Assembly: GCA_027603945.1 (NCBI GenBank)
Contig: JADIIU010000148.1
Coordinates: 1 to 29,221 of the forward strand
Length of the DNA: 29,221 bases
Source of the DNA: Terramyces sp. JEL0728
Lineage: Eukaryota; Chytridiomycota; Chytridiomycetes; Rhizophydiales; Terramycetaceae
Reading direction: 5' to 3'
Part shown: positions 1 to 25,136 of the stretch, in pieces
Position numbering within the stretch: the first letter of the stretch is position 1
How the letters are laid out: every line of letters starts with the position of its first letter
The notes under the pieces: generated by a model
What the model saw: the letters and a program-made list of their open reading frames with translations, nothing else
Told to the model about the DNA's origin: nothing
The model's database searches: none
Position numbers and translations under genes: made by a program

Positions 1-1343
1 ATCAACTTCAACCCTACTATTATCCAGGAGGTGCCAGTTACAAGCCAGCCGACGCGCTTGACCCAACTACCGTTGCTGATTATCTCCAGACGAGCAATGA
101 CGCATTGGGATTTCTCGCGATGATATTGTTCTTTATTGGCGCAATTACGAGTTTGATATCTCTAGCTGGTATTACTATATACAGGAATCATCCCATGGTT
201 AGAGCTTCGGATGTATTTGTTGGGTTTGCAATGCAAGTATGTATATTTATTAGTTGGTTTGACCTATTAACCATGTTGAACAAACCAACCCGGCTGGCTT
301 GTACTGCAGATTCAGTTATCTTGCCAATTACCTTTTCAATTTACTATGGATTGATGTTTATCAAGAATTATCGAATGTACATGATTTTTACGAGACCAAC
401 CCGTCGTGTGTTGAAAACGCACCAAACTATTGCCGTAGGGGCAGTGTTTGCCTTACCTGCTGCAATTATAATAGCAATTTGGCACGCAATTGATTCACCA
501 AAACCAGCTGCCCTTGCGGTGGTGAAAGGTGTGTATGCTTGGACCTGTTCGTCAACCTCGACCAGTGTTCAAAGTGATTTCGTAGCCGCTCTGGCCGTTT
601 ACTGCGGAGTCATTTTAGCTTTAAATTTGTTTATTGCTTTCCAGACCAGAAACGTCCCATCAAAATATAACGAGACTAAACTGATTACCATATCAATTTA
701 CAACACCGCGATTGTAAGCTGATACTCATCATAGGTTACTTTGTTTGCTATTTCATTGCTGCTTTCTCAAGGTCTTGGCTTTAGATTGAAAGCTGGAGTA
801 AAGATGTTTGCGGAATTCTACGTATTGTATTTCAACCTGATTAGCACGTTCATGGTCAAAGTTGTACAGTGTGCAAAAGGTCAAGGTCTGACTACCAGAA
901 GTTTTGGTCACTCATCTCAATCTCAAAGTCAAACTGGTAATACAAAAGAAGAAAACAAGACTGCTGGCTCAAAAGACGCAAAGAAACCAAAGGCAGGCAC
1001 ACCTGTTTTATTCAAGAAAGGGGGTATTTTTGCAACTTCAACTCCAAGAATCCTTACTTCTGAATCTGGTGATATTGTCTCATTCTGTCGATTTACCAAA
1101 ATTACTCTCGAAGACAGGAATCCCACTCGAAGAGGAGACGGGGAATGCTGGAAATTATCCAACCTTCAAGGCTTTAAGGTAGATGCGATCTCGAAAACTT
1201 CCCGCAAATACTTTTTGGACTTTGATGTATTTGAAATAGTGTTTGAAAACGAAGAGGACACCAAATTCTGGGATCAGTATTTTCATTCTTGGGCCAACAA
1301 ACATGCTTCGCACTCTTTGATGGGAGAAACAATGATGAAATAA
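1..1343 (+). CDS. Class C (GABA-B/mGluR-like) GPCR, 7TM region and cytoplasmic tail; 5' partial
   Basis: Exons 1-713 (first complete codon at 3) and 735-1343. The 21-nt intron 714-734 carries an in-frame TGA. The piece begins in the juxtamembrane stretch (PGGASYKPAD) and then has seven hydrophobic segments. Class C signatures are clear: a Cys opening TM3 followed by GLMFIKNYRMYMIF, a WTC in the second extracellular loop, and FQTRNVPSKYNETKLI between TM5 and TM6. The extracellular ligand-binding domain should lie upstream of the window. After TM7 comes a Ser/Gln/Lys-rich linker, then about 95 residues of mixed beta-like sequence (from KKGGIFATSTPRIL to FWDQYFHSWANK) resembling a PH-type fold; that last point is inference. 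A plasma-membrane receptor coupling to heterotrimeric G proteins is expected from the family. The ligand is unknown. Confidence 0.9.
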
Positions 1344-1411
1344 TTTTTAATCTATTTTCCAATTACAATTGAATTTTGCCTTTATTCTTTTTAACATCAC
1401 CTAGTTTAGAA

Positions 1412-2936
1412 TTAAATACTTTCATTGAATTGAGTAACTACTTCAGTAATACTTTTACTACTGTCATTTCTGATCGATGGGGATCTACTGCGAGGTTTGT
1501 ATTCTTTTTGAGGGAGGAGGTCTCTCAATTTCTTTGTTTCATTAACAAATTCATCTATAGGTATATCGTTGTCTTCCTTAAACGCTTTCTGCAGGAAAAA
1601 TGTCTCTTCAAGTTGTTCTTGTCGAATAGCTTTGGCGTGTTCGGCAATTACAATCTCTGGAATAGCATCAATTTGCTCAACAATCGAGTAGCCATCGTCA
1701 GCTAGTACCAGTTTTGCGGATTGATCAATCACACTTTGCACCAAAATTTCAACTGCACGCGAGTTGCTTTGACTTGCTGGAGTAATAAATACAGAATTGC
1801 GTTTGTCTTCAAAAATCTCTTCTGGAAAATCAAATACGGCATTCTCCATAATAGATGGAGACACCGGAATACCTTTGTTCTTTGGCCGTAATTCTCCTTT
1901 GGAGACGAATGTGCCAGAACCACTATCCATTGTGCTCCTTCTCCGGCTACTTACTTGAGGTGATGAATACAGCGACGAAGAATCACTTTTCATACTTATT
2001 GGAGTGGCAAGCCCATTATCCCCTAATCCTTTGCGAGAGAGTCGCGCCGAATCAGTAGTGTCAATTGGGGCTGGAGTTGCCGTCCCAAGACTTATCCGCC
2101 TTCCAAGTAAACTGTTTCTTTGGTGTCCAGCTGGGACCAAAGACCGGGATTTCTCAATTGCAGTTTGAGACTGAGAAACCTTTGAGGATCGTTTTTCCAC
2201 TTTAGATTGATTGAAATAGCTTTCATCAGAAATCACCTTTTTGGAATTCCGGTCCAGTGTCACTATTCCTTCATATCCAGATTTTTCAAATGCTTTTAAT
2301 TTTTCAATTATTTGAGACTCATTATTGACTGAAACGCACGGCTGACTTTTGTAGAATAACATGTAAGTGGGGTATAAATTAATATCGTATTTTCCGCGCA
2401 ATTCCTAGGATAAGCAATTCTTACATCTATTCCCAACATTTCGTCAATTCCACAGAACTGCATGGTGGGGTAAAATCTTGATAGCGAAATCATACTGAAA
2501 ATGTGGTTTTTGTGATTTTGATGTCTGGAGCTGTAGAACAAACACGCAGACAGCCCATCGTAGACAAGTAGCGACGCCAGATGAGAGCCAGATTTCGCTT
2601 CATGATATTTGCTCTGTGCTAGAATGCATTCTCGAAGCACTTCGGGAATTTTGACTGGATCCAAAATCAAGCTGCTAAAGACAGTTCCGTTCACAAAGAA
2701 CTGAAATGATGGGTAGCCAGTGATGCGAAATTTAGAAGCTATTTCTTTCATTCTGTTTGTATCTACCTGTATGCAGGTCGCTCCTTCGGATACCAGCTTT
2801 TGAGGCATCGATTTGACATCAGAACTGGTTAGCTTGATAGTTACTTGTATGCAAAGCAGTAAAATAGACACAAAGTAAATTTGGTCGATGTGATGGATTG
2901 GAACTCTTCTAGACTTTTGATTTCTTGCCAGGACAT
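1412..2936 (-). CDS. Tandem thioredoxin-fold protein without CXXC, with disordered C-terminal tail
   Basis: Exons 2936-2845, 2824-2425 and 2404-1412, giving 494 aa; introns 2825-2844 and 2405-2424 are both 20 nt. Residues about 1-110 have the thioredoxin order: strand FTLCLFY, then DTNRMKEIASKFRITGYPSFQFF with the cis-Pro. A second copy follows, with ACLFYSSR, then ELRGKYDINLYPTYMLFY. In both copies the CXXC site is replaced (AYNSD and SSRHQ), so disulfide exchange is unlikely; a binding or scaffold role is inferred. The last ~300 residues are Ser/Arg/Lys-rich and low complexity, with a more ordered acidic stretch near the end. There is no signal peptide or KDEL, so it is probably not an ER PDI. 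The ATG at 2936 is the first one compatible with the frame. Confidence 0.7.
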
Positions 2937-3204: not shown

Positions 3205-4124
3205 TTACTTTCTTCTTTTGCTAGAGTGGACATTCACGGCTTGTCTAACGTTAATCTCCTCCTTTTTAGGCTTTCCAATCTTTTCTGCAATATCCAAATT
3301 CTTTTGTTTTTCAACTTCAACTGGACCGGTGCTAGATTCAAACTGAGTAAGAAATATGCTACCTTTCTCTTTACGCCTTTCACTTTGACATTGTCGTTCT
3401 TTAATTTAGGGTCGAATTTGCCCATGGAAGCAGTTGAAACATTGGCATCGACGATTTGCTTGTAGAGCATTTGCTTCTTGAAAGATTTATGATCCAAGCC
3501 TTTTTGCTTTGCGTAAGATTCTTCTTGGTTTCTTCTTTGCTGCATTTGGTTCTTTTCTACTCGTTTCTTCTTTTCTTCTCTGTCTGCTTGGTACATATCT
3601 GTAGTTGGATCTCGAATTAGCAAATTATTACCAGTTTCATCTGGAACTTCTTTAATCCAATCTGATAAATCTTTTCCACTCTTTCCTTGGTTCTTGTATC
3701 CAAAGGTTGGACGATATTCTCCAGTATTTTCGTCAAACACAACTCTCTTCTTTTTAGTTTTCTGGATTCCTTTAGCCGCAGCAAACTTTTCCCATCTTGT
3801 CATTGGTTTTTGTTTAGGAATTGGTTTTGCCCTTGGAATTTGATTCTTCATTGAACGAGGGAGAGTTGCAAACACACCATCTTCGTTTGAAACTGTAGGA
3901 CATTCGAAAATTGCATTGATTAGTATCTGAATTCCATCTCTAGCATCTGATTCCAAATTGTTTCTGAATTAGATAATATTACTCTGATGGGTTTGGGTCA
4001 AACGCAGTCAAGCATTGTAAATCAACTTCCAATGGGATATTTTTGTCGACTTTTACTGAAGCACTATGTTATTATTCAACTACTATTTCTCTTCTAATTT
4101 CGCCAACTGGTCAGAAACATCCAT
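3205..4124 (-). CDS. RRS1: RRS1, 60S ribosome biogenesis factor
   Basis: Exons 4124-4084, 4063-3983, 3963-3363 and 3342-3205, giving 286 aa. Introns are 4064-4083 (20 nt), 3964-3982 (19 nt) and 3343-3362 (20 nt). The family blocks are in order: N-terminal MDVSDQLAKLEEK, DLQCLTAFDPNPSE, then LPRS with PKQKPMTRWEKFAAAKGI, KKKRVVFDENTGEYRPTFGYK and a Lys/Arg-rich C terminus ending SSKRRK. Rrs1 acts in the nucleolus with Rpf2 to bring the 5S RNP into pre-60S particles. The N-terminal block is only recovered by splicing a 41-nt first exon and an 81-nt second exon around two tiny introns. AATAAA at 3195-3200 lies 4 nt past the stop. Confidence 0.95.
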
Positions 4125-4431: not shown

Positions 4432-5328
4432 ATGGGAGAAAACAGAAGAGTATACTTTGGTATGGTAGAGCTAATGCCAGGAAAATTACCTAGAGATTGT
4501 AGAGAACGAGACGTTGAAAAGTTGGCCAAGGAATTTGGAAGAATCCGGGATGTTCGTTGTCTGCAAGGCTTTGCTTTTGTTGAATTTGATGATGGCAGAG
4601 ATGCATCAGACTGTGTAAAGGACTTGGATGGTACAAGATTCATGGGAGAAAGGTAATTTGGCGTTTAAAACAGAATTATTTGTGAATTTGCAAAAAGTAG
4701 CAGAGGTGATCGCAGAGACGACAGGAGGGATGACAGAAGAAGAGACGACAGAAGAGATGACAGAGATCGTCCACGTAATATTCGCAAACCAGATCATCGG
4801 TAATCTACATCTAATTCTAGTGTTACTGTTTTGGGTCTCCCACGTGGTACCTCATGGCAAGTAAATGAATATTGATATCAAGGATCTGAAGGATCTGATG
4901 CGCAAAGTTGCTGAAGTGCAATACACCAACGTGGACCAAAATGGTGACGGTGTTGTTGAATTCATTTCTATTGAAGGAAAAGATAAGGCACTCAAACACT
5001 TTGAAGGATACGACTACAATGGATCGACTCTTGAAATCAAAGAAGTAAAAATTGCTAATTTCAGGGTGACAAGGATCGTTCTGGTGACCGCAACGATCGT
5101 GACAGAGTGACTGCATACTAATGATAGGATGACCGTCGCGACAGGGATGGCAGAGACGATCGTCGTGACAGAGACGACAGAGATGATCGTCGCGACAAAG
5201 ACAGAGATGACAAGGACGACCATCGTGATAAAGATAGGGATGATCGCAGAGACAGAGACGATGACCGCGATCGCTCACGCTCCCCTGCCAAGCGCTCCGA
5301 ATCTCCAACAAATCATGATGAAGAATAG
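4432..5328 (+). CDS. SR splicing factor, SRSF1-like (two RRMs) with Arg-Asp tail
   Basis: Seven exons: 4432-4459, 4481-4652, 4674-4799, 4821-4860, 4883-5044, 5065-5106 and 5128-5328, giving 256 aa. Introns are 21, 21, 21, 22, 20 and 21 nt. RRM1 has RNP2 VYFGKLPRDC and RNP1 LQGFAFVEFDD. An Arg/Asp-rich linker follows, then the pseudo-RRM with SWQDLKD, the invariant heptapeptide of SRSF1-type second RRMs. Expected role: nuclear splicing-site selection and mRNP assembly. The tail has alternating Arg and Asp (DRRDRD, RDDRRDRDD) rather than Arg-Ser; only RSRSP near the end is classical RS. It has six introns in 0.9 kb, the highest density here. Intron 1 is the only short intron that is a multiple of three with no in-frame stop. 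Confidence 0.95.
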
Positions 5329-6733: not shown

Positions 6734-6810
6734 AGGCGAATCAATAATAGGCGAATCAATAATAGGCGAATCAATAATAGACGAATCAATAGGCGAATCA
6801 ATAATAGGCG
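6734..6810. repeat. 15-bp minisatellite, about 5 copies
   Basis: Unit AGGCGAATCAATAAT at 6734, 6749 and 6764; a 12-nt variant AGACGAATCAAT at 6779; a full unit at 6791; then a partial AGGCG. The unit length is a multiple of three, but no coding role is apparent. It lies 160-237 bp upstream of the uL23 start. Confidence 0.97.
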
Positions 6811-6970: not shown

Positions 6971-7536
6971 ATGGCACCAGTAGTAAAAAGTAAGTAATCA
7001 CTTGTGGGTAGCAGCTTTAGCTGCATTGTTTTAGTGGAACGAAAGGCATTTTCGAATGCACTTGACGTCTTTTAAAGACCCAACACTAGAGCAAATCTAA
7101 CCTTTTAGAAACCGAAGCTGTCAAGCAAGCTGCAACCGCAAAGAAGGCTGCTCTCAAGGGAACTGCAAAGAAGCAAATCAAAATCAAGACTTCTGCTACC
7201 TTCCACTTGCCAAAGACTCTTAAACTTGCTCGTGCTCCAAAGTACGCAAGAAAGGCTGTCGCAAAGGCTGCAACTCTTGACCAATACTCTGTCATCAAGT
7301 TCCCACTTGCAACTGAATCTGCAATGAAAAAGATTGAATACGACAACACCATTGTCTTCATCTGTGATGTCCGCTCCAACAAGCGCCAAATCAAGGATGC
7401 TTTGAAGCGTCTTTATGACATTGAAGTTGCTAACGTCAACACCCTCATCCGCCCAGATGGAAAGAAGAAGGCTTTTGTCCGTTTCCCAGCTGATGTTGAA
7501 GCTACTGAAGTTGCTTCAAGAATCGGACTCATGTAA
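6971..7536 (+). CDS. RPL25: 60S ribosomal protein uL23 (L25/L23a)
   Basis: Exons 6971-6989 and 7109-7536, giving 148 aa, close to the family length of about 140-155. The short first exon encodes MAPVVK, followed by a Lys/Ala-rich N-terminal extension and the globular domain: [69 protein letters not shown] and the C-terminal ASRIGLM. uL23 sits at the polypeptide exit tunnel. Codon choice is C-ending and GC-richer than its neighbours (AAG, ATC, GCT), as expected for a highly expressed gene. It has the only long intron in the window. AATAAA at 7543-7548 lies 6 nt after the stop. Confidence 0.98.
6990..7108 (+). other. 119-nt intron in uL23 with three inverted repeats
   Basis: Begins GTAAGT and ends with CTAAC...TTTTAG. 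It contains three successive short hairpins: 7011-7024 (GCAGC/GCTGC, loop TTTA), 7046-7059 (GCATT/AATGC, loop TTCG) and 7067-7079 (GTCTT/AAGAC, 3-nt loop). It is about six times longer than every other intron here. No C/D snoRNA boxes are evident. Confidence 0.93.
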
Positions 7537-7735: not shown

Positions 7736-10157
7736 ATGCAAGAAGAGCAGCCGCTAATTAGAAAAAAGGCATCGCATTTAAGAATGTAAATATCCACTAA
7801 ACTAGATCTGATGAACATCGCCAAACTTGGTCTCCAGACTCTCCAAACTTTGCAATCAACTCGCCAACCTTGTCGGTGATCAATGTCAATAATTGGCCAG
7901 ATAATCAAATAATAAATAAAGCAGAGGAGCATGGACTGCGCTGGAAGTATGACGATTACACCACCATTGACTGGATACATGACACTATAAAAGATCGCAT
8001 ACGGCAGCGGAATTTAAAATCTCTCTTGGGATGGAAGAATAAGCCGCTACAGCTATACGATGCTGCTCAAGCCTGGTTAGTGCTCACTATAGTTGGTATA
8101 TATCGCTAACCAAAGGAATACTAAGCGGATTTACAGCTTCCCTGTTGGATTTCACCAGCGCATTATTAGAAACTTATCGACACGGATACTGCAGATCAAA
8201 TATATTATCATCCAAAGATTTATGCTGTGCAGGAGAGTTATGCGACTGGGTGTCGTGGCAAGATATTTCGTCCTCCGTATCAATGTCAATATACGTTGGC
8301 AGTGCACTGTTATTTGCTTTAATTGCATTTGGAATCGCTTCGGGAGGACCCTACCACCAAATAAAATTAAACACAATCTTCAGACACGGCTACCTACACT
8401 TGGAAACCCCATCGTCAAACCATTATTACATGTACCATGCAGCTGGATCTGGCATACCAGAAGTCAAAACGATACTTGGAGGGTTTGTTATTAGAGGGTT
8501 CCTGGGAATGCGAACACTGATATTTAAAGTATTTTCACTTATTTTTGTTGTTGCTGCTGGATTAGCAATGGGTGTGCAAGGTCCCCTTGTCCATATAGCC
8601 TGTTCAATTGGAAATGTTACGACAAGGATATTCGAAAAGTACAAGACTAATGACGCCAAAAGGAGAGAGGTTATGTCTGCTGCTTGTGCAGCTGGTGTGT
8701 CTGTCGCTTTTGGTGCTCCTATTGGCGGTGTACTATTCTCTCTGGAAGAAACGTCCTATTATTTCCCCCCAAAAACAATGTGGAGAGCTTTTTATTGCGC
8801 GCTGATTGCAGCAGTGACGCTAAAAATGATTAATCCGCTAGGGACCGGCAAATTGGTAATGTTTCAAGTTACCTATAATACAGATTGGAATGCGATTGAA
8901 TTGATACCATTTTTCTTACTTGGGATACTTGGTGGGCTGTTTGGTGCATTATTTATTGGAGCCACAACTGCAATTGCCAGATTAAAGCACAGACTGCCGA
9001 GTTTCACACCATTAATGCAAGTTATTGCTATTGCGATAATAACCAGCTGTGCTAGCTATCCATTCGAACTTACAAACCAAGGAAATATCAACTACGTCAC
9101 CGAGTTGTTTAGCGAATGCTTACCAGACTCTAAATCTGGACTATGTAGACATGACAATTATCTGGACCTATTACTGGAACTATCTTATTCTTTGGTTGTA
9201 AAACTGGGGCTAATGATTATTACTTTTGGCATCAGAGTTCCTGGTGGAATTTTCATTCCATCCATGGCTGTTGGAGCTTCGATGGGCAGAATTATCGGGA
9301 CTTTATTCCAACTACTTTTAAAGTATTTTATTCTAATGTAGCTATTTGCCTATGTTTGATAAACCGATTAATGTTATTCCTGGTGTGTATGCTCTAGTTG
9401 GTGCGGCAGCAGCTCTATCGGGTGTAACTAGAATGACAGTTTCACTAGCAGTAATCATGTTTGAGCTTACTGGTGCACTCACATATGTTTTACCACTTAT
9501 GACTTCCATAATGGCAGCAAAATGGGTAGCAGATGCATTCGGAAGGGATTCGATTTACGATCACCTTATACACGAAAAAGGGTACCCATACTTGAATCAT
9601 AAACGCAATAATTTCACCAAACTCGCCCTGGCGCAAGATTTGATGGAGACGAATGTCGATACACTTGATACAGATTCTATTTATCGTGTAAGTGACATTC
9701 AATCAAAACTTTTGCATTTAGGTAATTCTTTATTAACCAGACATGGTTCATCCTTCGTTTGACGGCGGGTTCCCAGTAGTCAAATCTGGGTATGTGCTTT
9801 CTGGATATATTTCACAGACAGATCTCTCCCACGCACTTAGTCTGATCGATACAACACTAGACTATAACCAATGTATAGTATTTCACAATCTCGCATTCCA
9901 TAACACAGCTACTCCATCTCAATCGCCCCTGATCCAGTCAACTAGCCCAATCTGCGATTTATCGCACTGGGTCGACAAAGTACTTTTTTGTTAATTAGGC
10001 ACCACTGGCGGTATCTGCATCGGCCTCATGTGAATTGGTTATAGAAATGTTTGTAAAGCTGGGAATACGGACCTTATTGGTGGTAAGGGATGGTGTGTTT
10101 GTTGGTATTATTCACAAGAAGCGGCTGCTTTCATTCATTCACAAATCTCAAGAGTAA
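7736..10157 (+). CDS. CLC-family chloride channel/transporter with two CBS domains (Gef1/ClC-3-5-7 type)
   Basis: Six exons: 7736-7785, 7806-8095, 8116-9322, 9342-9721, 9741-9979 and 9999-10157, giving 774 aa. Introns are 20, 20, 19, 19 and 19 nt. The N-terminal cytoplasmic [12 protein letters not shown] segment resembles the eukaryotic endosomal group. Pore motifs: GSGIPE (about 224-229), GVQGPLVH (about 266-273), [15 protein letters not shown] (about 317-331) and GGIFIPS. CBS1 is split across exons 4-5 and CBS2 is in exon 6 ([18 protein letters not shown]). Family members move Cl- into acidic organelles or the Golgi. The gating glutamate of GxEGP is Gln (codon CAA, 8577-8579, residue about 268), while the proton-glutamate region FSLEE is kept. 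A strict 2Cl-/H+ exchanger is therefore doubtful. Confidence 0.96.
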
Positions 10158-12725: not shown

Positions 12726-15700
12726 ATGCAAAATGATCTGAAATTACAAATTCAGGAATCAGTAAGTTTGTATTTTACAACAAATGAAATCAATCACCTG
12801 AAATCTCTATCTACAGAACCGAATTTTAATGAGTTAATTGTCGATTACATTTTACTGCTGGACATGACAATTCAGGACAAGCAGCCACTTGTTGGCCTCA
12901 TCAAACAGTTGGAAATCCCCTCCGAATTACTGCTGTGTACTCTAGATACCGACCTGCTAGTTGAAATAGGGCTAATCGACGATGCGAAATTCGTAGATAG
13001 GAAAATCATCAGAGCAAATACAAACCTTTTGTACAAACAAACAAGATACAACTTACTGCGGGAAGAGAGTGAAGGCTATTCGAAACTTGTTGTACTTGTC
13101 ATCGAAGGGCTGGTTTTACCTGTGGATGTGTATTTTAATAGGGATGAGAAGAATTTCATGGAGCTGCGAAGCAAGGATTTGCAAAAGACACATCAGATCG
13201 TAGAGAATATCAGGAAATTGATTGGTTACTTTGATTTGGACCCCAACAGAGTGCTGGATATTTTATTGGATTTGTTTATTGCGAATTTCTTGGATTACTG
13301 GGATTACTTTTTATTGTTGTTCCAAGGGCTGGTCAAAACACAAAACAACCTCGGCCAATTACTAGGATTCAAGTACCAATCATACCAGGAAGCACCGGTG
13401 CAATTATACTATGTCTCGGCAATACTTATCAAGCACTCTCTGTTAAAGATTGAAGATTTGTATCCATTCTTGAACGAGAAACCCTATGACCAATATAAAA
13501 AAGAGTTGAAAGAGCAAGCTAGGAACGCCGGCAGGTTTGTCAGGGTTGTTATGGGTGAATTAGGAGCAGTTGAGCAAACACAAGAAAAGCAAGGGAAGAG
13601 TAGGAATTGCCAAAAGAGCGGGTTGTTGGAGTGTGCACTTGCAATCGGTATCTGAAGATTTATTGTAGGCGATTTACAAACCTCCTTGAAATTGCTGAGC
13701 AAAGCCAAATTTATCGATAAGGATATTGGATACAATATTTGTCGAATAATTCATTTACTAGTGGATCAATTTGATACGAGAATATTCAAGCCTAAATCAA
13801 AGGATTTGAGTTTATTCTGTCCGCCAGTATCTTCGTACCAAACTAGTTGCGGTTTAAGCACAAGAGTCTATACGGGCAAGAAACATTATCCGTCACTCTT
13901 CAGGTAGTTGGAGTTAATGTAGATTCTTTTATCCTTGGAAAGACGCTTTAATCAAAGAGTTGGATATTAGGGATAGTGCAGAAACAAAGGACGAGGTGTT
14001 GAAGGTTTTGAATCAAATCAATGGGTTGTTGAACCATGCCAGTGTCTATTTATCTTCTGATAATCTGCTATTAGGAAAACTGGTTCGATTTGGTACTAGC
14101 ACAACTAATCAAGGCAAACATTTGCTCAAAACGGAGCTTGAACAAGAATGCAAACAGCTGCTTTCAGAGTATATCCTACCTTCGGTTTCCATGACCCAAA
14201 CCAATCCAAATATATCAAACGAAATATGGAAAATCATGAAGCAATTCGATTACAAAGTCAGATATGCATTGTATGGCGAATGGCGACATATCACATATTC
14301 GAGAATCGATGTTTTACAAATAGCTAGTTCTGGTAACCGAAAAGACATTCAATACATCATGAACAGGCTCAGTAAAGAAAATGTAAAGTTAAATGGAAGA
14401 CAAATAGGCAAAATCGTGCATTCGAACCCCACACTTACCTTTTCGTATATTATCAACATGATTGAATCTTATGACAATATGATTCCGTTTGTGGTTGAGG
14501 CTACACGGTACTTGACTGATCTTGATTTGGATATCTTGTGCTTTTCGCTACTGGAATCAGTATCAAAACCCAAAGAAAAGATTGAACCAAATGGAACGAC
14601 TATTGAAAAATGGCTGAAATCATTATCAACATTTTCTGGAACACTGTTCAAGAAACACTCTATTGATTTACAAGGGTTAATACAGTATATCTGCAATCAA
14701 TTGGCGAATAACCAAATTTATGACCTGATTATTTTACAAGATTTGCTCACTCAGATGGGCGGAACTAGTTTGCCGGAAGAAGCAACTGCAGTCCAAATCG
14801 AATCGTTGGCTGGAGGAGAATTGCTGCGCAAAGAAGGATACTTGAACAACCAAAAATCACTCAAAAAAACCAGCACAAGACTCATGAAACATTTGAAAGC
14901 AAATATGATGAAGCTAGGTATTTTAATTGCACAGCAGCAACAGCAAATAATTTACCGTCAAAAGGATGAATTTGATTTGCCAAGCTTAAAAATCCTCGGA
15001 TGGCTAAACGACTTGTGTCTCAAGTCATTCCTCCAATACTTTGAATTTGTGTTTGACAATTGTAGCGAGTACCCTACATTTGAGTATTTGGTCGAGCGGA
15101 TTAGTATACCATTTGCTTTTCATATATATCGGCAAAAGATTATTGTTGAGATGCAGGGACGGGAAACTAGAGAGGAAGTTGATGATAGGAAGGAGGTTGA
15201 AGAGGAAGAGGAAGAGATGCAGGTTGATGAACTTGAAGAGGGGAAAGATGAAGAAAACAGAGAAGATGTGAAAGCAGAAACGGTGGAAGTGAAAGAGACT
15301 GAAGAAATGCAAGTTGATGAAGATGAAAAGACTGAACAGTTGGATGAAAAATCAAGTGCAATTGAAGATGATATGCAGGTTGATATTGAAATACATCCCG
15401 TACTCCAAACTCTTTCCAATCAAATCCTCCAACTAAACTTGGCGCAGCCGGAATATGTAGATTTCTACTCTAATTTCTGGTGCTTGTCTTTATCAGACAT
15501 CCTAGTACCAACAAAGCGATATGAAATTCAAATGAAGAAACACAAACAAGTGCTCGCAGACTTGGAAAAAGCCAAGAACGATTCAAAGAACCGCAAAGAA
15601 AAGGAACGTGTGCTTTCCATACAGCTACAAATAGTTAAAGAGTTCAATACGCAAAAACACTTTCATAAGAAAACAATGGAGCGATTGAAACTTGCCAAGT

Positions 15701-18700
15701 CTGGTTGGTTTAAGGAAGAAAGGACTCAAGTGCCAGAGTATATTCTCGAACAAGTATTTGAAAGGTGCAACATATCACCGGCGGATGCAATCTTTGGAGC
15801 CCAGTACATCAAACTATTGCACACCCTAGGGACCGAAAACCTGTCTACACTTTTGATTTACGACAAAATCCTGGACGGCGGCAGTATGCATTCCATCTTA
15901 TTTTCGCTAACAGAATTTGAAGCCAAGAACTACGGACTGTTTTTGTCTTCTATATTGGAAACTTTGACGAGATGGTATAAGGATGAAGCAGTTTATGATT
16001 CAGTCACCAAAGATGTACCTGGATTCAAGAAGGATGTTGATGAAATATTGCCATTTAGTGAATTCAAGCAGCTGATGATAAACTGGCACTTGCAGCTCCG
16101 CCAGTGTTTCCTTGAATGTCTCAAATCTGGCGAGTATATGCAAATGCGGAACTCTATTATTGTTCTGGACAAGATAAATGATTTCTACCCTACAATTGAT
16201 TTTGTCGGTCAGCAAATTGAAGTATCCATAATGAAAATCGAACAAAACGAAGTTAGAGGCGATATGAAGCAGTTAGCACGGTCGTACTATGCAAAAATTC
16301 AACACTCGAAAAAACAATGGAAGCCGATTGAATGTGTGGACCTTGAGCCTACAATTCAGTTCGCTGGACAGAAGATTGCTTTTAAACAGCTGCAAATTGA
16401 TGAGAACGATCGAATGCAAAAAGTTGAACCTCTTGCGTGGGCCAAACCTGCTGAAGAGAAAAGCAAAGTAAGAGAGTGGGATCGGGATAAGGATTGGGAT
16501 CGTAAGGTAGGTTTGGGTTAATGTAGGAGCGACGCCGTGATGATCGTGATAGAGATAGGGGTTTGAGAGAGTCAAAAGACAGCCGTGTTCCAAATAGAGA
16601 CAATAAGGATGCAAGTAGGGACACCAAAGATACAAGTGAAACTAAAGATATGAACGCTGAAAAGGGAGCAAATTCTGAAGATAAGCATACGCAGGAAGAT
16701 GTATCAAAACGAATATTCACAATTAAATCCGACAAGGATGTTGTTATTACAATCGAGAAGCCTGGGATGGAAGTAGGTGAGCTTGATGAAGGAGAAATCG
16801 ACGAAAAGAATGATGCAGATGTGTCTCAATGGTCGGACAAAGAAAAAGAGGATGCCATGCCTGAAGTAGCTAAAGAAGCCAAACCCGAAAAACAAGAGGT
16901 CAATAAGCAGCCCACTTCTGTTGATAAAACCTCTACCAAACCGCGAAATGATAGGAATGTGGACCGGCCAACACCAAATCAAACGGATAGGGATAGGAAT
17001 GATAGAGACCGAAGATTAAGTGATCGTGACCGACGAAATGATAAGAATTACCCGATTGATCGACTTGAACGTGACAGAACTAATGACAGGAACTGGAATG
17101 AAAAAAACGAACGGCTAGATAGAGATCGTGATGGTAAAACAGACCGCAATTCTTTCGGAAATGACCGACCAGATAGGGGTACTCGCAATTCATTTGGTAA
17201 CGACAGAAATCCAACTGCAAATGACCGAACCAATTATGGAAATGATCGACAAGGTGAGCGCGATCGAAACGACAGAAATACATACGGAAATGACAGGAAT
17301 AGAGATCGAAATGACCAATTTTCAAATGAAAGATTACCAGATAGAAATGATGCCAGAAGAAATGAGTACAATCGTCCCCGTCCAACTGACAGATCTTACA
17401 AGGAAGATAATGATCATGGAAAGGACAATGATCGCAATTACCGAAACAAAGAGCGCATCTCTGGAGAGGAGCGCAATAGGGATTCAGACCGCGCCAGAGT
17501 TTCAATTGAGCATAAAGCAGTATCCCCCAGAGTAGCGGAGCAAGATAGGTTTGCGGAGGGTAGAAATCGACAGGGAGCTGAAGCCAGTCCAGAGACAAGA
17601 GTTTCGGCGGATTCTCCGTCAAAAACACCCATTTCTCATGAAACCAAGCCAGACACTGAGCCATCTCCCACTAAGCCAATAGTTCCTGAAGACGTACTAC
17701 GCAAAATATCGCTGGTGAAATCTCAAATTGAAAAATCTGCAGGGCTGGACAAAGAACAAGTGCTCAAACAGAAAATTGAGCTCGAAAAGAAGAATAGAGA
17801 GCTAAAACGACAGGAAGATAGTAAAAGTATTCCTGTGCCTGCAGATATCCCCAAAAATGAGGCTAGCCACTCTGAAAATGCCAAAGATCGGCAATCTTAT
17901 CCTCCCGTGGAACTGCAAGGTTCACTATCGTCGGAAAAGGACCGAGGTGGACAAAGGGAACCTATTGCAACCCAAAGCGCAGTTACAGCTGAAAAGGATA
18001 TTAGAAATACTGACGAGCGCGGAAGGATGAATCAAACTATTGAAAAAGAAAGGTCGCAGCGCCATCCTCAACAACCAGAAAGGCAAGCTGCTGCCACTGT
18101 TCCACCAAGCTCCAACCTTGTTGATTCCCGTGCATCTAATGTTAAAGAGTCCCCAAAGCAAAGTTTTGAAAACGAACCTGTCAAGGAGCAGGCAGCAGAC
18201 AAGACCCCACCGTCATTGCAGGAAGATATCCCAAAAGCTCAAAGATCCCCCCTTCCTGAACGACAAAAATCTTCAGAATATGTTGGTGCAGATCAAGTGC
18301 AAGTGGAATCAAAGACCGAACACAAGTATGAGCGTCCAAAATTCAATCGAACTACTTCTCTCGATAGCAGCAAGGATGAGCCAATTAACGATACCTCTAG
18401 CCAAGACAAAGACAGGAATCAAGCAGCAACCAATCAGCCAAACGAACCAGCAAATAGACCACGTCAAGAAAATAGGGATAAAAGAAATGATAATCGCGAT
18501 CGATTGCCGAGAAGAGACTTCCAGCGTGATGGCCGGATGAGGGATAGCAGAGATCGCGACATTAGGGACAATCGAGATAGATTCCAAAGCAACTACCCAG
18601 ACCACCGCAACGAACGATTTGACCGAAACGACAGACCGAATGATCGCAATGACAGAAGATTTAATCGAAATGATAGATACCAAGTAAAATATTTTAATGA

Positions 18701-18775
18701 TAGGACAATAAGAGAGCTAGTGACGGCAATTCAAATCAAGATCCAAAGAGATTCAAGTATAGCAACAGACAATAA
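12726..18775 (+). CDS. THO2: THO complex subunit THO2 (THOC2)
   Basis: Exons 12726-13647, 13669-13903, 13923-16506, 16527-18683 and 18704-18775, giving 1,989 aa. Introns are 21, 19, 20 and 20 nt. THO2 is the scaffold of THO/TREX, which couples transcription to mRNP packaging and export. Hallmarks: YNLLREESEGYSKL, GYFDLDPNRVLDILLD, FFYPWKDALIKELDIRD, DYKVRYALYGEWRHITY, and a late Tho2 block (LTRWYKDEAVYDSV, HLQLRQCFLECLKSGEYMQM, NDFYPTIDF). About 40 residues separate the first two motifs, more than I recall in animal THOC2. A Glu-rich insert at about 15170-15390 carries three MQVD motifs. From residue about 1230 the ~760-residue tail is disordered and Arg/Asp/Asn-rich (NDRDRRLSDRDRR). The last 23 residues are a separate exon. 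AATAAA overlaps the stop. Confidence 0.94.
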
Positions 18776-18934: not shown

Positions 18935-19937
18935 CTAGCGCTTCTTTCTCCTTTTACGCTCAAAGAATTCCAAAATGTCCTTTTGCTCTACAACCTTGTC
19001 ACCACCCTTAAATTTTTCCAAAAATGTTAGTAGATCGCGTTTCAGGCCATTGTACGCAATCACCCCATCGATGGCTCGTTTCCTATCAATATGATTCAGT
19101 TTTTCCATTCCCAGGTCTACGCTTGATTTGTCGACTTGATTATCAAGTATGGGTTCCACTGATTGCTCTATTTCAAGGATAAATGGAATATCCGTGTAGT
19201 ATCCCATGCACTATGTCAGTACAATGCTACCTTTGCACATCTACAAAAGGCACTTCTGAAATCCTCTTTGCAGAATATACCTTTGGTCGATAAACTTTGC
19301 TTTTCATTTGGCAGTCCGCATTGATTTGTATCTAAACCAGTCTTTGGGGGAGAGATATATCCATTTTGATCAGCATAGCAGTGCAAAAAATCATGCTTAT
19401 CAACACATCCACTGCAGATATATTCGTTAAATTCCTGGTCTGGCATTCCAATGCATCTTTCGTGAAACCAGTCTTCGCAAACCAAACATTGCTGCATCAC
19501 ATCCTCCTCCTTTTCGGCATCGTACATTTGCTTGCAGTAGCAATTAATTCCATCAAAGTTGTCATTGTACTGGTTCTCGTTCTCTTCTCTTTCCGTGTTA
19601 TCAATCCGGCAAGCTTTATCTGTATTAAATGAGATTACTGATCGTTTTGTTGGTTCCACAATCACATCTGAAATTTCGCTTAAAGAACAGTTCTTGGAAA
19701 TCGTGATCTGTATGACAAGTTACAAAGCAGCCATAGCAAACGCCAACTGGAGAGTCCTTTTCCTTGGCGCATGTTAAACAAGAGTATATTCTTTGCCGAA
19801 TGTAGCCTAAATTAGAACAGATTACCCTTATTGTAAAAGCAGATTGTTGGGTCGAAAGGAAGAACCTCTTGCGCTTCCTTTTCTACGCGGTCCATTTCTT
19901 CGACATATTCCAAAGCGGTTACTACGTCCTTTGCCAT
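18935..19937 (-). CDS. UBR7: UBR7/Mlo2-type UBR-box and PHD-finger protein (putative E3 ligase)
   Basis: Exons 19937-19826, 19806-19639, 19619-19231 and 19210-18935, giving 314 aa. Introns are 19, 19 and 20 nt. The UBR box starts at about residue 35 with CFYNKGYIRQRIYSCLTC, then GVCYGCFVTCHTDHDF and KRNFRCDCGTNK. A PHD-like zinc finger follows (NCYCKQMYDAEKE, QQCLVCEDWFHERCIG, YICSGCVDKHDF), and a C-terminal FCRCAKCMGYY motif spans the last intron. The C-terminal helix ends in a basic run (RKRRKKR), a possible nuclear signal. UBR7 relatives bind histones or N-degron-like substrates; ligase activity is inferred from the family. The UBR box reads correctly only after removing two 19-nt introns. 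Confidence 0.95.
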
Positions 19938-20223: not shown

Positions 20224-21635
20224 ATGTCATCCCAAAAGTATAATTCACTAACAAGTAGAAAGATTCTCTTTTTAGGATCAGGATTCGTCGCAGGACCTTG
20301 CTTCAGAGTGTTATTAACCCGACCAGAAAACTTTATTACCGTTGCATGCAGAAGAATTGAAACTGCTCAAAATTTATGCGATGGACATGAAAACACTCGC
20401 GCAATTTCACTTGATGTAGCAAACCAGCAGGCACTTGAAGAACAAGTTGCTCAGCATGATTTGGTCATCTCGCTGATTCCATATACTCTGCATGCAAAAG
20501 TTATTCAAGCTGCAATCAAGTACAAGAAGCATGTAGTTACCACCAGTTACATTTCACCAGCAATGCAAGAATTACACCAACAAGCGGTGGCTGCTGGTAT
20601 CACTGTATTCAACGAAGTCGGTGTTGATCCAGGCATTGACCATTTGTATGCAATCAAGATGATTAATCAGGTTCACAACGAGGGAGGAAAGGTAGTCGGA
20701 TTCTACTCTTACTGTGGCGGTAGCTAAGAATTCATTATAGGTCTTCCAGCTCCTGAAGATTCCAACAATCCTTTGGGATACAAATTCTCTTGGTCATCAA
20801 GAGGTGTGTTGCTTGCATTGAGAAACGATGCCAAATACTGGAAAGATGGAAAGATTGAAGAAACCCCTGGGACAAGATTAATGGAATTGGCTAAACCAAT
20901 TTACATTTACCCTGCATTTGCATTTGAAGGTTATCCAAACAGAGATTCAACCCCATACACAACGAGATATAATATTCCGGAATGCAGAGATTTGATTAGA
21001 GGTACTTTGAGATATCAGGGTTTCCCCAAGTTTGTCAAAGCACTAGTTGGATTAGGATTCTTGAATGAGAAACCCGTGGGCTATTTATCTGCCAAATCTG
21101 CTCCAGTCGCATGGAACCAAGTATTGCAAAAGGTTGCTGGCACTGCAACTACAAATGAGCAAGAACTAATCGCTGCAATTATCAAGAAATCTGCAATCCC
21201 ACAAGAAGATCAAGCAAGAATCATTTCTGGGTTTAGATGGTTGGGATTCTTTTCAGATACTAAAGTTCACTTGAAAGAAAACTTGCTCGACACCCTATGT
21301 GCAACTTTGGAAGAAAAGATGCAGTACGAAGCGCATGAAAGAGATATGGTAATGCTCCAACACAGATTTGAAATTGAAAACAAGGATGGATCTCATGTAT
21401 TTAATATTAATTATAGGAGACTCGCACATCTACCGGATTATGGTTTGGTGTTCCAGGAGGTGAAAGCGCTATGGCTAGAACTGTTGGTGTGCCTTGTGGC
21501 ATCACTACGCAATTGATCCTTGATGGCAAAATCAAGGAAAAGGGTGTACTGGCTCCAATGACCATGGAGCTTTGCCAACCTATCATTGAAGCATTGGAAA
21601 AGGAAGGCATTACTATGGTCGAGGCTGTCATTTAA
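20224..21635 (+). CDS. LYS9: Saccharopine dehydrogenase (NADP+, L-glutamate-forming)
   Basis: Exons 20224-20719, 20741-21396 and 21417-21635, giving 456 aa, near the 446 aa of yeast Lys9. Introns are 21 and 20 nt. The ATG at 20224 is preferred over the open frame reaching 20137, because the Rossmann strand KILFLGSGFVAGP then begins about 14 residues in. Further markers: DLVISLIPYTLHAKVI, KKHVVTTSYISPAM, NEVGVDPGIDHLYAIKM and the C-terminal MARTVGVPCGITTQLIL. It forms saccharopine from aminoadipate semialdehyde and glutamate, the penultimate step of the alpha-aminoadipate lysine pathway. It is a single-function protein with no fused ketoglutarate-reductase half, as in fungi. AATAAA begins 3 nt after the stop. 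Confidence 0.97.
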
Positions 21636-21643: not shown

Positions 21644-21742
21644 TCATGGACTCGCTGCATAGTATACTTTTAGTAAATATTCTTTCTCCAGCATCTGATG
21701 CGCTACTGATATACCACTGTCCAGAAATGCGAACCCCAGTGT

Positions 21743-22441
21743 TTAAAGAGAATCATACTTTTGTTTATTCTTTTTATGAAGATTATGAAGCATAAACACA
21801 AAGATGACCAATAGCGAAATGAAAAACACGATCCCTACAACGACATCAAAAGTCCTCTTTGGTGGTAAAACAGAATACTTTTTAGCCTTTCCGTAATACA
21901 TTTTCCCACTGCAACAAGCATCAGAAGGGAATTCACTGCAAAAACTCTGTTTAGCGCTTGGATATCCAAACCCACATGTCTGTCTATCACTATCGACTCC
22001 TAGTATACATTTAGACTGGGCAAATATGCTCGAGTGAGAGATTTGTTTGCACTGTACATCCGCATTGCTCACCACACTCCTAAACTTTGTAATTCTGGTG
22101 TCAGTTGAGGGTAAACATTTCGCAAGCAGGTATTTTGTGTACAGCCCATACTGATCACAAACATGATCGCATAACCTTGCCGGCTGATCAATATTTTCAT
22201 TGCACGATTTAGAGTAAACGAAAATATCCGTCATGCAAATGTAAGATAGGTAATATTGAACCAAAGAGTCTTTGTATTCGGGACATGAAAGGAAGACTGA
22301 CCATAAATTTGTGTTTCTGAGTGTTGTTTCGTAGTCGTGCTGTGTTTGAATATTGATCTGGTATACTTTTGATAAAATTTCAGTGTTGATTTTGTAGTTG
22401 TATGGCGAACAAATAGAGCTGTTGAGAGATATGCAAGTCAT
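21743..22441 (-). CDS. Cys-rich ectodomain protein with a C-terminal TM helix (frizzled-CRD-like pattern)
   Basis: Single open frame, 232 aa from the ATG at 22441. Residues 1-190 hold 14 cysteines with a pattern seen in extracellular Cys-rich domains: CISLNSSIC near the start, WSVFLSCPEYKDSLVQYYL, SYIC, SCNEN, LCDHVCDQYG and KCLPS. A TM helix (VVVGIVFFISLLVIFVFML, about 198-218) and a short basic cytosolic tail follow. The topology demands a signal peptide, yet none precedes the ATG. An in-frame 48-codon stretch (22594-22451) lies just upstream but is cut off by a TAA at 22448-22450. The 5' end is therefore uncertain. Its nearest plus-side neighbour is the channel gene on the same strand. Function unknown; the frizzled comparison is tentative. 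Confidence 0.6.
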   Translation of the reverse strand: MTCISLNSSICSPYNYKINTEILSKVYQINIQTQHDYETTLRNTNLWSVFLSCPEYKDSLVQYYLSYICMTDIFVYSKSCNENIDQPARLCDHVCDQYGLYTKYLLAKCLPSTDTRITKFRSVVSNADVQCKQISHSSIFAQSKCILGVDSDRQTCGFGYPSAKQSFCSEFPSDACCSGKMYYGKAKKYSVLPPKRTFDVVVGIVFFISLLVIFVFMLHNLHKKNKQKYDSL

Positions 22442-22608
22442 TCGAGATTAGAAAGGTTTTTCGGGGCTGGTATTTTGTTGGGCAGAGTCACCATTTGGTC
22501 CAACCTCCACAGATGCTCCAATATAACCGCAATTCGCTGATATTCCAATGGTAATTTCCAAATAGCCCGATTGGAAAATCACTTTGAAAAACATTTATTC
22601 ATTCATGC

Positions 22609-23931
22609 TCAAGTTCTGCTAAACATGGCCCTAAAAGGACTCAATTGTTGAGGTGTGACTTCTTCCCCATCCTTTTCAGCTTTCTGTGCCTTCTTGTACA
22701 AGTAATGCAAGTACATGAAATATGTAGCACCGAAAATACCAATTAGTACCATCAGGACTATCAGGGCAACTCTGGCTCCATTGATATCAGACCCAGGCAA
22801 GAAAATGTAGATGGTAAACAAAATCAACTCCACTGGCGCAACACCTCTAAAGATATTTTCAATAGTTGGCGATAGAGAAACCTAGATTAGCAAAGCCTTA
22901 CTCTTCCCAGTACTCTTAGCACATGAACTACTGCAAATTCAATCATTGCAATGAACACGAATAAAAAGATTATTGCAATGTATGTATCCAGCTTGGTTGC
23001 ATCTGCTATTAACAAATTTTACAGTTGACTTTTGGCAAATCGGCCGATACCACAAAGTTCAATGTAATGGTTGCTAATAGCAACGATACACCAAACCCTA
23101 CTCTCGCCGGCACCGCGGTTGGGTCGATCCAGTAAGTCAAAGTGGAACAAAGGGCGATAAAGAATAGCGGAAGAATGTACTTTAAAACGTAGACTGAAGG
23201 ATCTCTGGTAATGTACAAGGAATAGGTAAGCAGGTCGAATAGTGGTTGATTGTCTCTAAACAGAATACTGCCGTTTGTAGGCGTTACTTTATCCAATGAC
23301 CACAAAACAGAGGAAAAAGTCTTGTTGATAATGGGGTCAGGATAAGCGGCACCACCTGAATCGTTATACCACTGAACACCCATCGTGTTTTGACTAAATT
23401 AACGATAAATACTTGTTGGAGTAACTAACTAGTTGCAAAGGCAGCTTTTGCGAGTCGAATGGGAAATCATGCAAATCAAATCCAGTTGCCCATGACATCA
23501 AGTAATGTCGAGACCAAAACACAGTTCCATCATTGCCAATCTTTAAAGTCTCATCTAACGGGACAGGATCTGTAGCTTCATTGTAAAAATACACATCGGG
23601 AGTCCAAATTGAATCAGGACTGATCCTTAGTGCCTCGTTTTGCAAGTTTTCTGGGAATGTTAGTCTAGGATCATTCCACCGTAATCGGAGAAACAAGTCC
23701 ATTGAGAACTGGTTTGTTTTTGGGTCTACATTGAATAATCTGTTTAATCTGAATTGAGCCTGGACTATTGTTGGTTGTACGAATGCATAAGGCCTAGTCA
23801 AGTTGTCATATGGCACGCCGCCTAATTAAAGTGCAATTACCTGGGTTTTGCAGTAATCTGTTTGCTATCGCTCCTAGCTGGATCGACGTGTTTGTCTGGG
23901 CAGATACTGCCGCCAGCAATAAATGAAGCAT
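22609..23931 (-). CDS. Pentameric ligand-gated ion channel (Cys-loop superfamily) without Cys-loop cysteines
   Basis: Exons 23931-23841, 23821-23413, 23393-23023, 23002-22902 and 22881-22609, giving 414 aa. Introns are 19, 19, 20 and 20 nt. A signal peptide (MLHLLLAAVSAQ) precedes an extracellular beta-sandwich with RLRWNDPRL, the hallmark ISPDSIWTPDVYFYNEA, and the loop GFDLHDFPFDSQKLPLQL. The two cysteines expected around FPFD are Thr/Gly and Leu (about 143 and 156), as in prokaryotic GLIC/ELIC. TM1 YVLKYILPLFFIALCSTL, TM2 RVGFGVSLLLATITLNFV ending at LPKV, TM3 LDTYIAIIFLFVFIAMIEF and TM4 RVALIVLMVLIGIFGATYF are all present. The M3-M4 loop is short. The agonist and ion selectivity cannot be read from the sequence. 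The host-type tiny introns argue against contamination. Confidence 0.93.
23003..23022 (-). other. 20-nt intron with tandem NAGNAG acceptor (channel gene)
   Basis: Minus-strand sequence ends GTTAATAGCAG. The 20-nt form gives LPKVNYATKLD after TM2; the 17-nt form gives LPKVNSDATKLD. Both stay in frame, and the first fits the family better. Confidence 0.75.
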
Positions 23932-24173
23932 TTGCAGTTATCTACTATTTACATGGTTTTATCAACCACAACAATGTTAGCATTACAATGGTAATTCAAC
24001 AATGCAAACAAAAAACAGATATTATTTCCAGGCGTCTGTAACACTAATAGATTAGGGTGATCGCAATATGGATGTGACTGCGCAATGCTGGTGATTTTAG
24101 TGGTCTGGTTGCATTAGCGCGATAGGTGACGTCAGCTACTTAAAATAAAAGAACATTGTAGTGCAAGAATATT

Positions 24174-25136
24174 TTATATTCTCCTAAAGATTGAAAACAG
24201 TTCTTTGATTTTCTCTGATTCATCTCTGATAATACCCAAGTTTTCGCTTTCTTGAAGATCTACCGGATTCGACACCAGTATTGTACATTCCTTTTGGTTT
24301 AATTTTTCTTGAATGTCAGGTCTTATCCCGGTGTAAAGCTGTGGTTTAGTAACTGTGGTTGAAATTAGCTGGATTAGTTTTAAATACCTGCAGCTTTCCT
24401 CTAATTGTTTCTGTATCTCCAAAAACAAAATTAATTTGTGCTTCTTTTCCATATTGGTTTGTTGTTTGCGGGACTGCGCTGTCACTCAGCGAGCAATCTG
24501 GCGGAACATAATCAATGGCTGGTTCCAAGGATTAACCATTACTTACCTTCACTGTCCAGTGCCTCTCTCCTCCATTAAAATCGTAAACTCCAATCCAGTC
24601 ATTCTTGTAAACATTCAAACCAGCCTTTTGAAATAAACCTGAAATTAAAAATGGAAACCTGGCAACTCTGGGTAATTGAAATTAAAACAAGAAAAGCAAA
24701 TATCGCTACTGGTTTCAATAATTGGTTGGCCGTTGCAATAAATGTTCATGTACAGGTTTGTACATCCTCTTAATCGTAACTGCTGTCCGGCACATATAAA
24801 AGTACAATTTTGGCAGTCTCTAATAAATATCGATCCTTCGCAAGGCCCAATAAACACCAGACTGTCTTTGATTGCATCCACAGTTACTTGCTGATAACAA
24901 TCTTGCAAAAATATTTTGACATTTGAGCAATCTTGGATTTGAAATGGAACCGCATCTCCAAAAATCCCTTTTTTTATTATAGTTTCGTTTGTAATATTTT
25001 GGATCGTCACGTCTTTTGCTGTTAGTTTCTTTTTTGGCAGTGTGGGTAACTCCATTGGTTGCACATTTGTATTTACATTTGGTTCTGGATTTTCGACTTG
25101 ATCTTTAGGTTTTAGACATGGGCATAAACACTGCAT
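24174..25136 (-). CDS. RP2: RP2/TBCC-domain protein (ARL-GAP-like, ciliary trafficking)
   Basis: Exons 25136-24659, 24638-24543, 24518-24388 and 24368-24174, giving 299 aa. Introns are 20, 24 and 19 nt. The N terminus MQCLCPCL is Cys-rich and may be palmitoylated; it lacks the Gly2 of animal RP2. The beta-helical TBCC domain (about 40-185) has DCSNVKIFLQDC, GSIFIRDCQNCTF and QQLRLRGC, whose first Arg (about 121) matches the arginine finger of RP2. QPIIETSSDICF, YPELPGLF and WIGVYDFNGG follow. The C-terminal part (INFVFGDTETIRGKL) resembles the start of RP2's second domain but is short (human RP2 is 350 aa). RP2 stimulates ARL3 GTPase for delivery of lipidated cargo to cilia. Intron 2 (24519-24542) is the least certain junction; intron 1 begins GTTTCC. 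Confidence 0.85.

Follow-up and report, generated by a model that had tools for sequence, protein, structure and literature searches.

Tiny spliceosomal introns are on record for ciliates, for a relic nucleus, and for a parasite that lives inside cells. Stentor coeruleus has introns of 15 to 16 nucleotides (nt), the commonest of which begins GUAAUU with U at position +5; no strong branch consensus is reported for it, Slu7 and Prp18 went undetected, and the Cwc25 plug is reported missing (PMC9505925). Introns of the Bigelowiella natans nucleomorph measure 18 to 21 nt (as told in PMC10245619), with donors that are largely GT(A) and no branch-point signature in the reported data (PMC2483917); mikrocytid introns measure 16 to 17 nt, and the parasite M. 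mackini has 224 of them and 17 to 19 identified spliceosome proteins (PMC10245619). Paramecium introns are ~25 bp (PMC5014332), again with donors largely GT(A) and, for P. tetraurelia, no branch-point signature in the cited account (PMC2483917). Here we describe a 29,221-nt stretch of the chytrid Terramyces sp. JEL0728 (the window, which is the entire contig JADIIU010000148.1), in which genes are interrupted by segments that are very probably U2-type spliceosomal introns, shrunk almost uniformly to 18 to 22 nt. In all likelihood these introns are real, present wherever we sampled, and extreme for a fungus, as the original prediction had held; for Blastocladiella emersonii 55 to 333 nt is reported, with a CTAAC-like branch (PMC2773782).

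By size the Terramyces introns belong to the known ultrashort class; they are distinct in their strict, positioned branch site and in the retention of Slu7 and Prp18. As far as the cited descriptions go, they share with Stentor a near-uniform population of tiny GT-AG introns, U at +5, and an Isy1 N terminus that is not conserved, together with a conserved Yju2 N-terminal domain and the presence of U2AF2 and SF1, but they are 4 to 6 nt longer, have a strong YTAAY branch site, and occur alongside Slu7, Prp18, and the Cwc25 glycine plug. They are equal in length class to the introns of B. natans and share its largely GT(A) donors, whereas that genome is a relic endosymbiont nucleus without a reported branch signature. 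Uniform, very short introns with conserved sequence are also a mikrocytid trait, although here an extrapolated 22,000 introns go with all eight of the spliceosomal proteins sought. Paramecium resembles Terramyces in being a non-parasitic organism with many tiny introns and largely GT(A) donors, but its introns are slightly longer and lack a reported branch signature, and B. emersonii, likewise a zoosporic fungus and similar in its branch sequence, has introns of ordinary fungal length. A search of the open-access literature, outside which most subscription journals lie, gave no description of intron length for Boothiomyces, Terramyces, or other Rhizophydiales.

The genome assembly comprises 15,016,339 bases in 231 contigs. 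We rebuilt 12 intron-containing genes of the window with the aid of a purpose-written, locally trained gene finder, and statistical tests were run on 229,221 bases (1.5% of the genome), namely the window and 20 stretches of 10 kb from 20 chosen contigs. In the window, 42 introns were modelled; 41 are 19 to 24 nt long (12 of 19 nt, 16 of 20 nt, 11 of 21 nt, and one each of 22 and 24 nt), and one, in RPL23A, is 119 nt. Of the short introns, 38 begin with GTA, 28 carry YTAAY after the sixth base, and all 41 have GT..AG borders and end in AG, the models having been built on GT/AG. These counts enlarge and bear out the original prediction of 39 introns in 12 genes, 38 of them 19 to 24 nt, with 35 starting GTA, all ending AG, and 26 containing YTAAY. 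All 12 spliced gene models are open. Domain searches of the spliced proteins recovered a UBR box and class C G protein-coupled receptor (GPCR), TBCC, class 3 lipase, and thioredoxin domains, and the spliced channel model yielded the ligand-binding domain and part of the membrane domain; the THO2 and L23 domains were recovered within single exons. Comparison with solved structures gave matches for RRS1, SRSF1, and CLC, and for the UBR7-like protein nothing beyond short PHD and UBR matches. Removal of 3611-3631 (RRS1) and 4460-4480 (SRSF1) is not required for an open frame and is backed by homology. The modelled introns are as follows.

714-734, plus strand: 21-nt intron, class C GPCR-like gene; removal restores the frame, and the spliced protein shows a 7tm_3 domain
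1401-1419, minus: 19-nt intron, thioredoxin-like gene, 3' end, weak; gene finder alone
2405-2424, minus: 20-nt intron, thioredoxin-like gene; frame restored
2825-2844, minus: 20-nt intron, thioredoxin-like gene; frame restored, thioredoxin domain in spliced protein
3343-3362, minus: 20-nt intron, RRS1; spliced model, RRS1 alignment
3611-3631, minus: 21-nt stopless intron, RRS1, uncertain; if retained, 7-residue excess over human RRS1, though yeast RRS1 has residues there
3964-3982, minus: 19-nt intron, RRS1; spliced model, RRS1 alignment
4064-4083, minus: 20-nt intron, RRS1; spliced model, RRS1 alignment
4460-4480, plus: 21-nt stopless intron, SRSF1-like gene; if retained, RRM1 start broken and SRSF1 alignment begins only downstream
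4653-4673, plus: 21-nt intron, SRSF1-like gene; spliced model, SRSF1 alignment
4800-4820, plus: 21-nt intron, SRSF1-like gene; spliced model, SRSF1 alignment
4861-4882, plus: 22-nt intron, SRSF1-like gene; SWQDLKD of RRM2 restored
5045-5064, plus: 20-nt intron, SRSF1-like gene; spliced model
5107-5127, plus: 21-nt intron with GTG donor, SRSF1-like gene; spliced model
6990-7108, plus: 119-nt intron, RPL23A, sole long one in the window; frame restored, CTAAC with A 8 nt from the end
7786-7805, plus: 20-nt intron, CLC transporter; frame restored, outside the CLC-3 alignment
8096-8115, plus: 20-nt intron, CLC transporter; gap-free against CLC-3
9323-9341, plus: 19-nt intron, CLC transporter; no excess residue against CLC-3, which carries 3 extra residues slightly further along
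9722-9740, plus: 19-nt intron, CLC transporter, first CBS; frame restored, 6 residues before the junction without a CLC-3 partner
9980-9998, plus: 19-nt intron, CLC transporter, second CBS; gap-free against CLC-3
10346-10365, minus: 20-nt intron with GTG donor, class 3 lipase gene; spliced model
10538-10556, minus: 19-nt intron, class 3 lipase gene; spliced model
11654-11674, minus: 21-nt intron, class 3 lipase gene; spliced model
11770-11790, minus: 21-nt intron, class 3 lipase gene; spliced model
12228-12247, minus: 20-nt intron (or 17 nt; tandem AG), class 3 lipase gene; spliced model
13648-13668, plus: 21-nt intron, THO2; spliced model
13904-13922, plus: 19-nt intron, THO2; spliced model
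16507-16526, plus: 20-nt intron, THO2; spliced model
18684-18703, plus: 20-nt intron, THO2 tail; spliced model
19211-19230, minus: 20-nt intron, UBR7-like gene; spliced model
19620-19638, minus: 19-nt intron, UBR7-like gene, UBR box; spliced model, UBR box in spliced protein
19807-19825, minus: 19-nt intron, UBR7-like gene; spliced model, domain search of spliced protein
20238-20258, plus: 21-nt stopless intron, LYS9 saccharopine dehydrogenase; residues absent from the equal-length Boothiomyces macroporosus protein (P0001)
20720-20740, plus: 21-nt intron, LYS9; LYS9 homology
21397-21416, plus: 20-nt intron, LYS9; LYS9 homology
22882-22901, minus: 20-nt intron, pentameric ligand-gated channel; aligns with P0243 and P0244 without a gap, 4 residues missing from P0242 at this site
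23003-23022, minus: 20-nt intron, same channel; aligns with P0243 and P0244 without a gap, 5 residues missing from P0242 at this site
23394-23412, minus: 19-nt intron, same channel; aligns with P0243 and P0244 without a gap, 11 residues missing from P0241 at this site
23822-23840, minus: 19-nt intron, same channel; gap-free against P0243 and P0244
24369-24387, minus: 19-nt intron, TBCC gene; spliced model
24519-24542, minus: 24-nt intron (18 or 28 nt possible), TBCC gene; gene finder and spliced model
24639-24658, minus: 20-nt intron with GTT donor, TBCC gene; spliced model

The original prediction had suggested plotting intron lengths across the genome; run on the 229 kb, such counts place the ~20-nt class beyond the window, and since 20 contigs were sampled, the trait is a property of the genome and not of one contig. 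In a geometry test free of any gene or splice model, spans running from GTA through YTAAY to the first AG were counted by length and compared with five dinucleotide shuffles. At 18 to 24 nt, 238 spans were found versus 65 to 78 in the shuffles, with peaks at 19 and 20 nt, and the surplus was clear at 18 to 22 nt only (observed/shuffled 20/9.2 at 18 nt, 73/8.6 at 19 nt, 72/11.8 at 20 nt, 34/10.6 at 21 nt, and 21/9.0 at 22 nt), the narrow distribution below 30 nt that marks an ultrashort-intron genome. Single lengths scatter (34 nt, 23/12.2). With the laxer branch sequence YTRAY, 388 spans of 18 to 24 nt were counted versus 162 to 178, and with any GT donor 452 versus 372 to 406. A second test, also free of a splice model, ranked all 256 pairs of end dinucleotides by how often removal of the segment between them joins two open coding frames. 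At threshold 4, GT..AG came first at 18 to 24 nt (76 versus 34 expected; z 7.2, next pair 3.0) and fell outside the top five in five other length bins, where the best z was 2.8 to 3.4; at threshold 6 it was again first at 18 to 24 nt (14 versus 4.2; z 4.8, best elsewhere 3.7). An earlier, unnormalised and looser version did not single out GT..AG (rank index 47 in the 18- to 24-nt bin).

Three gene finders were used. The first, built on GT/AG only and without a signal model, fused genes and recovered few short introns. The second had a flat length prior of 10 to 300 nt and a site model seeded with 21 window introns of 19 to 21 nt; 282 of its 799 calls were 19 to 22 nt, standing above a flat background of over-calls. 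Because it over-called long introns, gene and intron totals were not drawn from it. The third, with a length term favouring 17 to 25 nt, placed 334 of 362 introns at 16 to 25 nt, a density of ~1.5 per kb, from which we estimate ~22,000 introns if this 1.5% of the genome is scaled to 15.0 Mb.

The 334 short introns of this last set have a consistent anatomy. At the donor, A occupies +3 in 91% and +4 in 53%, and T occupies +6 in 62%. Splice donors usually prefer G at +5; that preference is absent here, since +5 is G in 15% and T in 47%, and the 184 introns picked by GTA, YTAAY, and AG geometry alone agree (G 14%, T 46%). YTAAY is present in 203 of the 334, and the branch A most often lies at intron position 14 or 15, which is 5 or 6 nt before the end with the AG included. 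Of the 203, 99 have 2 nt separating YTAAY from AG, 75 have 3 nt, and 26 have either 1 or 4 nt; the 174 with a gap of 2 to 3 nt leave almost no room for a polypyrimidine tract, much as had been claimed. Introns end in TAG (209) more often than in CAG (85). GT..AG ends, a branch sequence that could pair with U2, and a U2 small nuclear RNA (snRNA) are thus all present as in U2-type introns, and the strong positioning of YTAAY separates them from the Paramecium and B. natans type.

Protein homology served as a ruler for the intron borders. The Prp8 gene has six introns of 19 to 22 nt, and its spliced stretches (299 and 914 amino acids) align with human Prp8 with zero gaps at all six junctions. Spliced LYS9 is 449 amino acids, equal in length to and 94% identical with the Boothiomyces macroporosus protein, with no residue left over at the introns; the next-best relatives are from Globomyces and Kappamyces. 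These matches put the organism among the chytrids, in the Rhizophydiales (family Terramycetaceae) and near or inside Boothiomyces, and bear out the fungal origin assumed in the original prediction. At none of its four intron sites does the ion channel show a gap against Terramyces or Boothiomyces JEL0866, and three of the four aligned CLC junctions are clean against CLC-3.

All eight spliceosomal proteins that we sought were found (U2AF65, SF1, Slu7, Prp18, Prp8, Isy1, Cwc25, and Yju2), a complement that, at this intron density, does not resemble the reduced microsporidian type. A Stentor-like loss of Slu7 and Prp18 had been expected and is ruled out, both proteins scoring over their cut-offs; Slu7 was also matched against solved structures. 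U2AF65 scored 251.7 bits exon by exon, under the whole-protein cut-off of 310.3, and when spliced gave a 212-bit match to human U2AF65. U2 snRNA was found at 140 bits with its branch-pairing GTAGTA region. The Cwc25 glycine plug MGGGDLNLKKSWHP is present and the Yju2 N terminus is conserved. Cwc25 stretches are identical on two contigs (G000:C30:109075 and C33:23034) and near-identical on C199 and C111 (L046, L047), through either a recent duplication or unmerged haplotypes. The original prediction had proposed inspecting U2AF, SF1, Prp8, and U2 snRNA for adaptations; all four are present, and the change that we found lies in Isy1 instead.

The branching factor Isy1, whose N terminus enters the active site, starts here with MAPKTLAQKQE. 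This replaces MARNEEKAQSMLYRFREAQ, a sequence shared without change by Spizellomyces, Fimicolochytrium, Powellomyces, Chytriomyces, and Polychytrium; a beetle and an ascomycete have a similar one. The protein body is conserved, with the match to human ISY1 beginning at residue 37 here and 24 in human. Boothiomyces JEL0838 has the identical start; Globomyces, Kappamyces, and Gorgonomyces, also Rhizophydiales, have different divergent starts, Globomyces the mildest, whereas Batrachochytrium of the same order retains MLYRFREAQ and the N terminus is not divergent in the other chytrids compared. On the gene strand of the Isy1 loci, with ~1.2 to 1.4 kb upstream included, we found no copy of the motif beyond one out-of-frame chance match inside the gene. 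The gene itself (L038, reverse strand, ~1225 to 1300, G000:C35) shows three intron-like units of 20, 20, and 21 nt spaced by 1 and 3 nt; the Isy1 start is followed either by a micro-exon run of introns or by one 70-nt intron.

A mechanism consistent with these features would have each intron recognised as one compact unit, with YTAAY read by SF1 and by the GUAGUA region of U2, and the first AG a few nucleotides downstream of the branch used, so that no polypyrimidine tract would be needed. The resulting ~13-nt lariat loop would have to fit an otherwise conserved catalytic core, and replacement of the Isy1 tail may be part of that accommodation, the least certain step, because so tight a loop would crowd the tail, whose normal place is on the branch helix. 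Structural work puts the N termini of Cwc25, Yju2, and Isy1 on both the branch helix and the branch A (PMC8022279), and the Stentor study, in which neither the Isy1 N terminus nor the Cwc25 plug is conserved, suggests relief of a steric clash (PMC9505925). Slu7, Prp18, and U2AF65 are kept, which may reflect a continuing need for them in the few longer introns, the RPL23A one among them. A functional link between the Isy1 change and tiny introns is a hypothesis to which we give somewhat less than an even chance. Our fuller proposal is slightly more tentative still: in one fungal order the spliceosome may have been retuned for the small loop by discarding the Isy1 tail and giving up +5G while keeping the second-step factors and the strict branch site, the active-site change of Stentor having evolved independently and tail loss marking the lower limit of intron length.

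Drift of the Isy1 tail in part of Rhizophydiales, unrelated to intron size, accounts for the same change about as readily as not. Yeast is viable without Isy1, Globomyces retains RFRE of the motif, and the Cwc25 and Yju2 N termini are conserved here, all of which suit drift. The homologues argue the other way: among 120 listed, 73 carry the box R-[NSDT]-x-E-K-[AS] and 36 are models that begin inside the motif (109 together). The remaining 11 comprise six that look truncated or misannotated and five divergent ones, of which four come from named Rhizophydiales and the fifth is an unnamed JGI sequence. Stentor, with its 15- to 16-nt introns, also speaks against drift, since its Isy1 N terminus is reported as not conserved (PMC9505925).

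The original prediction had also read surveillance by nonsense-mediated decay (NMD) into the in-frame stops held by 9 of 10 introns whose length is a multiple of three (3n), that is, selection of stops and non-3n lengths so that NMD destroys unspliced messages. This we consider unlikely. Stops occur in 9 of 12 3n introns of the window and, in the gene-finder set, in 68 of 76 3n introns versus 150 of 258 others, as selection would have it; the argument nevertheless fails because non-3n introns of the window hold stops as commonly (21 of 29). Stopless 3n introns are moreover under-detected. They were missed at first because introns were detected through broken frames, the gene finder shares this blind spot, and the window's three emerged only through homology. 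Finally, the length series 19, 20, 21, 22 falls without a dip at 21.

Several observations weigh against the interpretation of the segments as ultrashort U2-type introns. Support for their removal from RNA consists of DNA sequence and protein homology. There is one clear long intron (RPL23A) and perhaps a few more, and 28 of the 362 gene-finder calls are longer than 30 nt, including some fused genes and some with a good branch site. At threshold 8 the frame-bridging test had 63 events in the 18- to 24-nt bin and GT..AG fell outside the top five. Beside the 9722 junction, 6 CLC residues have no CLC-3 partner, which makes that donor less sure. The Isy1 step is a correlation across one fungal order and Stentor, not a demonstration. 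U6 snRNA was not found, the best covariance matches reaching 27 bits (cut-off 44) with 48 of 1,328 candidates scored, and a search with one pattern allowing up to 2 mismatches gave 0 matches; an assembly gap is possible. The two 27-bit matches, in near-identical sequence on two contigs, were taken for chance. The undetected U6 occurs together with donors that do not prefer +5G.

It is very unlikely that the true introns are longer (30 to 70 nt) and merely contain or adjoin the short segments. The public channel models of two Boothiomyces strains are short of residues beside three of the four introns (11 in P0241; 5 and 4 in P0242), as longer introns would predict, the Isy1 protein P0121 fits one 70-nt intron in our reading of the DNA here, and YTRAY spans show a small, unexplained surplus at 40 to 80 nt (1,099 versus 942 to 1,005). 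With YTAAY, however, there is no surplus at 40 to 80 nt (483 versus 466 to 495), and Prp8 and LYS9 have no residue to spare. P0242 and the other aligned relatives have the residues that P0241 lacks, and P0241, P0243, and P0244 have those that P0242 lacks, and so both models look wrong; both also carry a TBCC domain, as if fused with the neighbouring gene. P0243 and P0244 for the channel and P0001 for LYS9 are clean. Most likely, gene finders that impose a minimum intron length picked longer junctions in P0241 and P0242, which suggests that annotation blurs the ultrashort trait, and proteomes of this clade may hold systematic errors at such introns, judging from the one gene compared. Sequencing error or gene decay could instead have produced the segments as insertions or frameshifts, or translation could skip over them, which would sit with splicing being read here from sequence and not directly from RNA. 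Such readings are scarcely credible given the segments' common GTA/YTAAY/AG anatomy limited to 18 to 22 nt, their occurrence in the essential Prp8 gene, and sister-strain proteins without the encoded residues.

As ultrashort introns of a fungus with close relatives, whose splicing factors are ordinary so far as tested and whose branch signal is intact, these offer a system for asking what sets the minimum intron. They make it possible to test whether U2AF, Slu7, and Prp18 remain necessary with a branch point 5 nt short of the intron end, and whether lariat size is limited by the Isy1 tail.

In the window as a whole, Rfam gave nothing at its cut-offs and a tRNA scan found none. Folding of the 119-nt RPL23A intron gives -29.4 kcal/mol (z -2.05), a stability that 4 of 200 shuffles matched, and the intron may hold a regulatory structure; by eye, a short tandem repeat of type GGCGAATCAATAATA lies upstream of RPL23A at ~6735 to 6810. 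The class C (7tm_3) GPCR gene (3-1343, plus strand) has a C-terminal extension and shares the contig with the pentameric ligand-gated ion channel gene (22609-23931, minus strand), itself in a fungus. Of 29 relatives found for the channel, the best-scoring named ones are from the chytrids Boothiomyces, Terramyces, Blyttiomyces, Globomyces, and Zopfochytrium; animals, a dinoflagellate, and a bacterial assembly score lower. Two neighbouring genes on the plus strand (25357-26439, which has no Pfam match, and 26590-27738) look by eye like paralogues.

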